Assembly: GCA_012523135.1 (NCBI GenBank)
Contig: JAAYJD010000086.1
Location: 1 to 35,702, forward strand
Reading direction: 5' to 3'
DNA length: 35,702 nucleotides
From: Clostridiaceae bacterium
Lineage (GTDB): Bacteria > Bacillota > Clostridia > Saccharofermentanales > UBA5734
Shown: positions 22,949-26,096 of the stretch, in pieces
How positions within the stretch are numbered: position 1 is the stretch's first letter
Layout of the letters: every line of letters begins with the position of its first letter
The notes under the pieces: generated by a model
Seen by the model: only the letters and a program-made list of their open reading frames with translations
What the model was told of the DNA's origin: nothing
Databases searched by the model: none
Made by a program: the position numbers and the translations under genes

Positions 22949-23716
22949 ATGGATAACAGCCCTTATGTCCGTTCCGTCCTGAAAGCGCTGCACATCCTGG
23001 ACATCTTCGGGTTTGATGATCCGCTCGGTGAAGGATTCAGCCTGAGCGAACTGTCCCGCCGGACCGGTATCGCGCCCAATACCCTGTGCAAGATCCTGAA
23101 GACGCTGGTCCGGGCCGAATATCTGACCCAGGATAGCCTGCATCGCTACCACGCCAGCCACAAGACCTGCATGATCCAGATGGTCACGGCGCCCCATGCC
23201 GACCTGCCGGACCAGATCATGCAGATCATTCGCGCCAAGAGCCGCCTGCTGGCGGCGCCGATCTATTTCACGACCTTGTCGTTCGGCGAGCGCAAAATGG
23301 TCCTGCAAACCAGTGACAGCGCCCGGCAGGGCGATATCGTCCGCTTCGATGCCAAAAGCGGCGATTTCATCTACACCAAGCCCACCGGCCGGATCCTGGT
23401 CAGCTACGCCAACTCCGGCCAGCTCAACGACATCTTGGGGCGCTGGGGCTTCCCGGAGGAGCGCTGGGACAGCATCCGCAGCCTGCCTGAGCTGGTCCAG
23501 GCGCGCGAGGCGATCCGCCAGCAGGGCTTCTGCGTGCTGCACGAAGCCAACGATGTCCTGGCCGCGGCCGTCCCGATCAAGGTCGAGCGCTGCAATTTTC
23601 TCGGCGCCCTCGGCGCCGCGCGGCCCGGTCAGGCAGGCCGTCAGCAGGAAGCAGCCTTTCTCGTTGAGCAGCTGCGGGATTGCGCGGGCCAGATCGCCGC
23701 AGTCCTGTCCAGTTGA
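22949..23716 (+). CDS. IclR-family transcriptional regulator
   Basis: A 255-residue regulator. The N-terminal winged helix-turn-helix is seen in VRSVLKALHILDIFG, FSLSELSRRTGIAPNTLCKILKTLVRAEYL and the wing that follows. The C-terminal effector domain includes GRILVSYANSGQL and QQGFCVLHEANDVLAAAVPIK, typical IclR landmarks. The start at 22949 has GGAG nine bases upstream. It is divergent from the polyol dehydrogenase/GHMP kinase/nucleotidyltransferase/mutase operon and is its probable regulator, with a small metabolite as effector (inference). No terminator is evident before the Fe-S protein gene 82 bases downstream, so some read-through is possible. Confidence 0.9.
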   Translation: MDNSPYVRSVLKALHILDIFGFDDPLGEGFSLSELSRRTGIAPNTLCKILKTLVRAEYLTQDSLHRYHASHKTCMIQMVTAPHADLPDQIMQIIRAKSRLLAAPIYFTTLSFGERKMVLQTSDSARQGDIVRFDAKSGDFIYTKPTGRILVSYANSGQLNDILGRWGFPEERWDSIRSLPELVQAREAIRQQGFCVLHEANDVLAAAVPIKVERCNFLGALGAARPGQAGRQQEAAFLVEQLRDCAGQIAAVLSS

Positions 23717-23754
23717 ATAGCCCATCGCCATTCGCCCATAGTGAATGACAAACC

Positions 23755-23792
23755 ACCTCCTGTTGCCTACACTTAAGAAAAAAGCAGGAGGT
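23755..23792 (+). promoter_or_regulatory. Hairpin masking the ribosome binding site of the Fe-S protein
   Basis: ACCTCCTG (23755-23762) is a perfect inverse of CAGGAGGT (23785-23792), which contains the AGGAGG ribosome site of the gene starting at 23799. Two more pairs (one G-U) extend the stem to ten. The stem is followed by CTTTTT and then ATG, so the same structure could also act as a short terminator. Either way expression of the downstream gene looks conditional. Confidence 0.55.
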
Positions 23793-23798
23793 CTTTTT

Positions 23799-26096
23799 AT
23801 GCCCGCATCCTATGATCCGTCCCTTGCGCTGCAGCTGAAAAAGAAAGCCTATGAGCTCGGCGCTGACCTGGTTGGATTTGCCAACATCGAACGTTTTGCC
23901 AATGCCCCGATCATGATGAGCCCCCAGGGCATCTTGCCCTCCGCCCGCACCGTGATGGTCTGCGCCATTCACCACCCGGACGCCACCATCGAGCTGGACG
24001 GTGAAGAAAGCGCCCACATCGCGGACAGCTACGGTGTCCAGATCGCCATGAACGACAAGCTGGACCACATCTCCTTTACGCTCGCCTGCGAACTGGAAGA
24101 CATGGGCTTCCGCTCCGTCCCGATCGTTTCCAGCAACATCTGGCGCTACAAGGAATACAAGGACCTGAAAGCGGTCTTTGCCCCCGACATCTCCCATATC
24201 TACGCCGCCGTCACCGCCGGTCTGACTGAACTGGGCTGGAACGGCCTGTCGCTGTCACCGGAATACGGGCCGCGCAACCGCTTTGTCAGCATCATCACGG
24301 AAGCCGAGATCGAGCCGACGCCGCTTTACAAGGGCAAAGCCCTCTGCGACATGTGCGGCGCCTGCATCCAGCATTGCCCGACCCAGGCTTTCACCAAGGA
24401 AGTGCGCGGCGTCAACAATGTGCGGGTCGAGGACAAGGACAACCGCTTCGCCAACAAGAACCTGTGGCGCTGCGCCTGGGCCGAGCATTTCGCGCTCGAC
24501 CTGGACCAGGGCGTGCCGGATGTCATCAACGAAGAGGTCATCCTGAATACGGTCGAACAGCAAGGCCGGCGCAGCGGAACGCTGGGTACCTGCCTGAAAG
24601 TCTGCGTGCCGCCGGACATGCGCACCGAAAAGCCGGACTACACCGCCTTCACGACCCGCAAAAACCAGTTCATGCCGACCGGCCTGCCCATGCCGCGCAA
24701 AATCCTTGACCAGGCGATCCTGACGGCGACCGACTATGCGGCCGACCAGGTGGTCGTCCTCTCGGAAAAGACCGCCAAGGAAATGGGCCTTGATCTCAGC
24801 ACGCTCCTGCCCGACGCCAAGAGCATCCTGGCTGTCGCGATCAAGTGGCGTCTGGACGGCTATGCCGGCATCGACGAAGACGACAAGAAGCGCATCGGCT
24901 CAGCCATCCGCGAAGAGGCGCAGCGCGCCATGGTCTTCGCGACGCTGGACATCGCCCGCATTTTCGACACGCTGGGCGTCTCGGTGATTTCCCAGTCACG
25001 CAAAGTGCAGACAATCATCCATGATCACAAGCTGTTCGGCGAAACACCGGACGGATACGGCATCAGCTATTCGTCGGTCGTTGTCAACTGCGACCTGCCG
25101 GACATGGATCTGCCCCTGCGCGGCAACCCCGGCCGCAAACTGCGCGGCGCCCAGGCCGTCAAGGACCTGGCCAAAGCTTACGGCGCCAACCTGGCGGGCG
25201 TTTCCGACATCGCCCGGATCAACGCGGTCGTCGACCAGCTCAAGGGCGACGCCGCCAGCCGGACCATCCTTGACGCGGTCGACCTGAACGACTTGTTCAC
25301 GCCCTATGAACCATCCGTCAATACCCGCCAGCTTCGCCTCTACCGTCCCGCAGACTACCTGCCGGAGGGCAAAAGCGTCCTGGTGCTCGGCATGCGCTAT
25401 CCTGAAGCCGCCCTGGAGCGGGCGGGCAAACCGCCGGCGGAAGCCGTCGGCCCCTATGTCTTCGTGCAGTACCAGATTCACCGCGAGCTGACCATCCTGG
25501 CGCTCAAGGTTGTCAAATCCCTGCAGGAGCATGGTTACCAGGCGGCCCTGACGCACGACCTGACCCATCTCGGAACGGAAACCGGCAGCCCGCGCGGTCT
25601 GCACACGGCCCCGATCAACAACGCGGTCGAAGCCGTCTGCGCCGGCCTGGGCCAGCTGACCTGGAACCGCGCCGCCTACACCGAAGCCTATGGCATCAAC
25701 CAGGGTTTCATCGCGATCGTCACCGACATGCCGCTGCAGGCCGACCCGGTTCTGCCGGCCACCATCCAGGCCGTTTGCGCCGACTGCGGCAAATGTCTCA
25801 AGGCCTGCCCGGTCATCGCGTTCGAACCGGACAAGAAGCTGGCTCTGAAAGTCGGGGCCGAGACCTATGACTTCATGCCGCTGGACACCAACCGCTGCCG
25901 CTGGGCGACGCGTTACGCGCTGACCAACAAAGACGGTTTCGAGCACAACGGTTCGAGTCTGGACTTGCGTCCGGAAGCAGATCTGAACGAAGAGAACCTG
26001 GCTGCCGCCTTGCGCCAGCGTGACCCGATCAACAAGTTCAGGCCCACCATCGTGCAAAGCTGCCGTGTTGTCTGCCCCCTGCAGAAAACAACCTGA
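23799..26096 (+). CDS. Large multi-module iron-sulfur protein, QueG/reductive-dehalogenase-like
   Basis: A 765-residue cytoplasmic protein (no signal peptide or membrane helix). Module 1 (about 1-290) has a core (GADLVGFANIERF; LPSARTVMVCAIHHPD; GWNGLSLSPEYGPRNRF), then Cys183, 186, 189, 193 (CDMCGACIQHCP), Cys225 in a WRCAWA motif, and Cys265/269. Module 3 (about 450-765) repeats the same order: YGANLAGVSDIARI; LPEGKSVLVLGMRYP; Cys660, 663, 666, 670; Cys700 in NRCRWAT; Cys755/759. The middle (about 310-445) looks like another core copy (LLPDAKSILAVAIKW) without its Fe-S part. Relatives with this core are epoxyqueuosine reductase and corrinoid reductive dehalogenases; whether this one binds a corrinoid is unknown. 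The start at 23799 follows a perfect AGGAGG. Confidence 0.8.
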   Translation: MPASYDPSLALQLKKKAYELGADLVGFANIERFANAPIMMSPQGILPSARTVMVCAIHHPDATIELDGEESAHIADSYGVQIAMNDKLDHISFTLACELEDMGFRSVPIVSSNIWRYKEYKDLKAVFAPDISHIYAAVTAGLTELGWNGLSLSPEYGPRNRFVSIITEAEIEPTPLYKGKALCDMCGACIQHCPTQAFTKEVRGVNNVRVEDKDNRFANKNLWRCAWAEHFALDLDQGVPDVINEEVILNTVEQQGRRSGTLGTCLKVCVPPDMRTEKPDYTAFTTRKNQFMPTGLPMPRKILDQAILTATDYAADQVVVLSEKTAKEMGLDLSTLLPDAKSILAVAIKWRLDGYAGIDEDDKKRIGSAIREEAQRAMVFATLDIARIFDTLGVSVISQSRKVQTIIHDHKLFGETPDGYGISYSSVVVNCDLPDMDLPLRGNPGRKLRGAQAVKDLAKAYGANLAGVSDIARINAVVDQLKGDAASRTILDAVDLNDLFTPYEPSVNTRQLRLYRPADYLPEGKSVLVLGMRYPEAALERAGKPPAEAVGPYVFVQYQIHRELTILALKVVKSLQEHGYQAALTHDLTHLGTETGSPRGLHTAPINNAVEAVCAGLGQLTWNRAAYTEAYGINQGFIAIVTDMPLQADPVLPATIQAVCADCGKCLKACPVIAFEPDKKLALKVGAETYDFMPLDTNRCRWATRYALTNKDGFEHNGSSLDLRPEADLNEENLAAALRQRDPINKFRPTIVQSCRVVCPLQKTT

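Follow-up and report, generated by a model that had tools for sequence, protein, structure and literature searches.

A three-core iron-sulfur protein of the RdhA/QueG superfamily encoded beside an IclR-type regulator gene in a Clostridiaceae genome

What kind of protein carries two seven-cysteine iron-sulfur halves on one chain, separated by a third core, and what might it do? The question is raised by a gene in the 35,702-nucleotide stretch of Clostridiaceae DNA analysed here (the window). A preliminary description of this gene proposed a tandem protein with parts resembling epoxyqueuosine reductase (QueG) and reductive dehalogenases (RdhA), possibly an electron-transfer or corrinoid-activating enzyme.

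Domain layout of the triple-core protein

The reading frame spans 23745-26096, and we took the ATG at 23799 as the start. The features of the locus are as follows.

22949..23716, + strand: IclR-type regulator gene, directly upstream of the triple-core gene (Pfam HTH_IclR, E 1.4e-8)
23786..23792, + strand: ribosome-binding site AGGAGGT for ATG 23799 (direct sequence reading)
23799..26096, + strand: triple-core Fe-S protein gene, 765 aa (open reading frame and homologues of identical domain order)
23820..24332, + strand: module A core, ~aa 8-178 (AF2 model against QueG and PceA; alignment)
24333..24623, + strand: module A Fe-S domain, ~aa 179-275, with CxxCxxCxxxCP, RCAW and CxxxC (Pfam Fer4_16; AF2 confidence low here)
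24681..25118, + strand: middle core M, ~aa 295-440, degenerate, without ligand Cys (hhalign to B and A; core topology in the model)
25131..25763, + strand: module B core, ~aa 445-655 (hhalign of A against B; QueG match to the model)
25764..26093, + strand: module B Fe-S domain, ~aa 656-765, 7 Cys (Cys positions; alignment)

Read from alignments and predicted structure together, the 765-residue chain is laid out as module A (core plus Fe-S domain), a degenerate core M and module B (core plus Fe-S domain). The frame, its start and stop, both cysteine sets (183, 186, 189, 193, 225, 265 and 269 in A; 660, 663, 666, 670, 700, 755 and 759 in B) and the alignment of A with B all agree with the tandem protein of two seven-cysteine halves that had been proposed. 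In local alignment, A with B reaches 195, while shuffles average 33 (sd 5) and none of 300 attains that score; profile-profile comparison with five-member profiles (hhalign) gives E 4.8e-44. Pairwise alignment of M without homologues gives no signal above shuffles; with homologues included, the M profile matches both B (probability 98.6, E 1.4e-15) and A (probability 98.3, E 1.5e-14) in hhalign, which bears out the earlier three-part reading with a repeated core in the middle. In the AF2 model of the chain, helices and strands follow an identical order in all three cores, and confidence is best in M (pLDDT about 60-88). Two details of the preliminary description needed amendment. The middle part, said to be free of cysteines, does lack ligand cysteines but contains one Cys, C431, which is not a ligand since each of the eight aligned homologues has Ala there. 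The repeated order of motifs likewise stands for the cysteine sets of both halves, but not for the Trp of the GWN/TWN loop, which varies in the alignment.

Placement within the RdhA/QueG superfamily

A Pfam search with the 765-residue protein returned 4Fe-4S domains and a sub-threshold match to QueG_DUF1730. The best curated match was TIGR02486 (reductive dehalogenase; E 2.3e-22), at 80.3 bits under the NCBIfam cut-off of 160.35, with 121.8 bits for the best-scoring homologue; TIGR00276 (QueG; E 1.4e-14) reached 53.8 bits, under its curated cut-off of 200. Profile searches of PDB sequences return PceA, QueG and NpRdhA. The AF2 model of module A, in which the Fe-S part has low confidence, matches QueG with Z 16.1 over 205 residues and PceA with Z 14.8 over 207 residues (2.9 Å), with B12 chaperones next (CblD and MMACHC, Z about 9). 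QueG also matches the B region (chain-model residues 446-660) at Z 15, and NpRdhA ranks first when the whole-chain model is searched with Foldseek. Aligned over the whole chain, NpRdhA gives an rmsd of 17 Å, which makes the relative placement of domains uninformative. Confidence in the models is low, with a mean pLDDT of 55 for the chain and 58 for A, the full-length alignment of five sequences being too shallow for the Fe-S domains, which are poorly modelled, and a corrin cofactor (cobamide) is not placeable at such confidence. Taken together, profiles and fold matches uphold the view of A and B as RdhA/QueG-type modules, each with a core and a double-cluster domain, and support the fold assignment. 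Since the protein scores below the cut-offs of both families, we file it within the RdhA/QueG superfamily as a member of neither. We also sought a curated family of equal length and architecture, and found none in Pfam, NCBIfam or the fold matches.

The assumption that QueG and reductive dehalogenases have a single such module gives an incomplete baseline, as catabolic RdhAs are already known to carry a vestigial second core (PMC10463259). NpRdhA and JtRdhA (4ras, 6zxu; PMC10463259) resemble the triple-core protein in combining, on each chain, a vestigial cluster-less core and a core with a double Fe-S domain, whereas the triple-core protein has three cores, two cluster domains and no conserved catalytic Tyr, and gives no Pfam or NCBIfam match to the C-terminal NADPH/flavin reductase part of the NpRdhA type. 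PceA (4uqu, 8q4h) shares the core and the CxxCxxCxxxCP ferredoxin module, and the equivalent of its Arg305 is kept in A; PceA, however, has one core per chain and Tyr246, whereas A has seven cluster-type cysteines and no such conserved Tyr. The core fold of QueG (5d08, 5d6s; PMC4646009) is common to QueG and the model of A, but the triple-core protein differs in its triple architecture, in lacking the Tyr/Asp pair by alignment and in having no Pfam match to the HEAT-like C-terminal part. Core duplication is thus already known; a search of families, structures and open-access papers yielded no three-core, two-ferredoxin chain. The open-access literature, which is weak as evidence of absence, held nothing specific on the three-core form, on RdhA-like proteins outside dehalogenation or on the U32/IclR link considered below.

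One function to draw from these matches would be that of a genuine dehalogenase with organohalide substrates, as TIGR02486 is the best curated match and NpRdhA, the top fold match, also has a vestigial core (PMC10463259). The score under the dehalogenase cut-off, the lack of a conserved Tyr246 equivalent, the sugar-related gene surroundings of the family, the expansion of the superfamily to about 20 places in the same genome and the lack of any organohalide-respiration partner gene noticed in the parts read all argue against this reading, which we regard as quite improbable.

Conservation, putative active site and cluster ligands

Near-identical copies of the protein occur within the genus, at 93% and 84% identity; the 84% orthologue (L012:10001-12294) lies in two overlapping frames, reflecting a frameshift or an assembly error. 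At least eight more divergent genes have the A-M-B order, in further lineages of the class and the phylum and in two Planctomycetota genomes. These include genes of genomes G772 (46% identity), G050 (41%), G853 (39%) and G739, a paralogue of 862 residues on contig C85 of the same genome as the window, and two genes of one Planctomycetota genome, one of them at 35%; the protein of G621, from the same-phylum draw, has the full A-M-B order and is 38% identical to the Planctomycetota copy. The arrangement is rare, being present in 4/391 genomes sampled from the class and 2/299 sampled from the phylum (the genome of the window counted in both) and in 2/392 genomes of the Planctomycetota draw. Searches centred on the order and class of G050 found only G050 itself, a scan of viral contigs found no relatives of the triple-core protein and a plasmid scan gave one weak match at 15%. 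When modules of five triple-core proteins are placed in one tree with single-module proteins, the B modules group at 98/99, the A modules with weaker support at 81/52 and the single-module proteins at 99/100. Because A and B branch apart, one old fusion fits better than repeated recent fusions, and on these comparisons the A-M-B order is old and conserved.

The C85 protein (L023) has a repetitive Cys-rich insert (CGST...) in its middle core, at ~aa 395-435, that is absent from the related G739 protein. In the same genome, a frame cut by its contig start (L024:3-1412) encodes M-like and B parts, with no A part seen, and is possibly a third triple-core paralogue.

Conservation differs among the three parts. 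Across nine aligned proteins, mean pairwise identity is 47.5% in A, 33.6% in B and 22.1% in M, with 42, 26 and 2 invariant columns, respectively, and within A the core (50%) exceeds the Fe-S domain (45%). Arg161, the equivalent of PceA Arg305, is present in 9/9 A modules, while the corresponding position of B is Gly in the window's protein and varies among homologues. At the column of the QueG active-site Tyr (Tyr-101 in S. thermophilus), 8/9 A modules have Asn (Asn85 here), an assignment on which profile and multiple alignments agree; in B, this column holds His in the window's protein and is variable elsewhere. For PceA Tyr246, MAFFT and the profile search choose different columns, neither of which is Tyr-conserved in A or B. 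Module A also contains a conserved additional loop, SNIWRY...FAPDxSHI, ahead of the AGL segment.

In QueG, cluster 1 is held by Cys 184, 187, 190 and 243 and cluster 2 by Cys 194, 210, 236 and 239 (PMC4646009). Against the eight cysteines that hold two [4Fe-4S] clusters in QueG and RdhA, each module here has seven, and the missing ligand in both A and B is the residue matching QueG Cys 236. None of the nine proteins has Cys in this column of A. In B, an eighth Cys is found in 4/9 proteins (Thr, aa 750, in the window's protein), and was therefore probably lost in the other members. The proximal cluster of A is thus likely, judging from the alignment, to have three Cys ligands.

These absences bear on a second alternative, in which the cobamide has been lost and the protein is only a multi-cluster electron carrier that links a ferredoxin to another enzyme, its three cores serving as scaffold. 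The catalytic Tyr missing from A and B, the one cluster ligand short in each module and the genome's lack of a detected cobalamin riboswitch would all suit a carrier. However, the A core is conserved above the A Fe-S domain and above B (34%), which, with the A-specific loop and Arg161, fits a pocket better than a wire, and the neighbouring genes are mostly regulators, with no constant partner enzyme adjacent. We consider this explanation unlikely.

Neighbouring regulators and a proposed function

The frame of the IclR-type gene is open from 22817, and the part in common with L012 begins near MDNSPYVRS. The pair of IclR-type and triple-core genes is also found in L012 and in the Planctomycetota locus L013, and an AraC-type gene adjoins the copies in G050, G772 and G853 and the second Planctomycetota copy. 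In G002, the gene next to the C85-type copy encodes a LacI-type sensor domain and matches GH106 weakly, and the G621 copy adjoins a single-module relative, with no regulator seen beside it. Sugar-related genes surround the family's loci, and no constant catabolic partner gene was found among the loci read. That most copies lie next to a ligand-responsive regulator suggests that the enzyme is inducible. The genome of the window encodes proteins with B12-binding domains and has, at the end of a contig, a CobO/BtuR fragment; neither a cobalamin riboswitch nor a PduO-type adenosyltransferase was found in it, and PADLOC gave no matches.

The same neighbourhoods speak to a role as a corrinoid-activating enzyme, one of the functions suggested at the outset. 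Such an activator would re-reduce the corrinoid of a separate methyltransferase, a task for which low-potential clusters beside a corrin-binding fold would be suited and with which CblD and MMACHC as the next fold matches are in keeping. A URO-D gene does lie near one Planctomycetota copy, but no methyltransferase or corrinoid-protein neighbour appears in the other loci read and none is constant; the suggestion therefore finds no backing in gene context, and we hold it to be very improbable.

We give about even chances to an inducible reductase of the RdhA/QueG type (class III cobamide-like) with three cores in one chain and A as the catalytic module. A ferredoxin or similar donor would feed electrons into the two Fe-S clusters of A, which would reduce a base-off cobamide, predicted to bind in the A core, to Co(I); this in turn may drive reductive loss of a C-O or C-halogen leaving group from a substrate, its class being a guess, that would sit beneath the A-specific NIWRY...FAPDxSHI loop. 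M could supply a built-in (dimer) partner surface, by analogy with the vestigial core of NpRdhA (PMC10463259), and B might be a further cluster-carrying unit that relays electrons or has a structural role. When substrate is present, the adjacent IclR or AraC regulator probably turns the gene on. This reading draws on the superfamily profiles and folds, the architecture, the order of conservation (A above B above M), Arg161 and the A loop, the regulators, the B12-protein families and the known case of a vestigial core (PMC10463259), and is weakened by scores under both cut-offs, the lack of a conserved catalytic Tyr, the one Cys short in each module and the lack of a riboswitch. The occurrence of this rare A-M-B arrangement in distantly related bacteria and its usual position beside a regulator gene indicate that the protein is probably a real enzyme of anaerobic metabolism. 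A bolder form of the proposal, doubtful but to be taken seriously, would make it a new class of cobamide enzyme, in which a catalytic RdhA-like module, joined in one chain to a vestigial core and a second cluster module, with four clusters in total, a three-Cys proximal cluster and an Asn replacing the catalytic Tyr, reductively cleaves a natural, non-halogenated substrate in a novel reaction. The triple-core family and the expanded single-module set offer concrete candidates, with a conserved architecture and residues open to mutation, and the adjacent regulators could expose the inducer and hence the substrate.

The 3.4 Mb genome of the window has a striking expansion of the superfamily, with about 20 RdhA/QueG-like places on contigs that include C85, C128, C210, C237, C39, C195 and C266. 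The single-module RdhA-like proteins (on C210, C266, C128, C237 and others) likewise lie beside IclR or AraC genes, but differ from the triple-core protein in having one core each, in forming their own tree branch and in often being encoded as adjacent long and short pairs. Side-by-side genes occur at L026 (C210), L053, L056 and L057, in two phyla, and the long type (about 350-370 aa) and the short type (about 280-300 aa) fall on separate branches. Such pairs are possibly heterodimers, with the triple-core protein as their fused counterpart. A conserved Cys-rich protein (FAVGYQ...AEVYF), which matches Peptidase_U32 below threshold at best (Pfam E 0.004), is encoded at L028:9646-10677, L029:446-1465, L054:5401-6423 and L052:8534-9706. 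In the genome of the window and in a Planctomycetota genome, its gene adjoins single-module RdhA-like genes or the regulators of these, and the protein is a likely functional partner.
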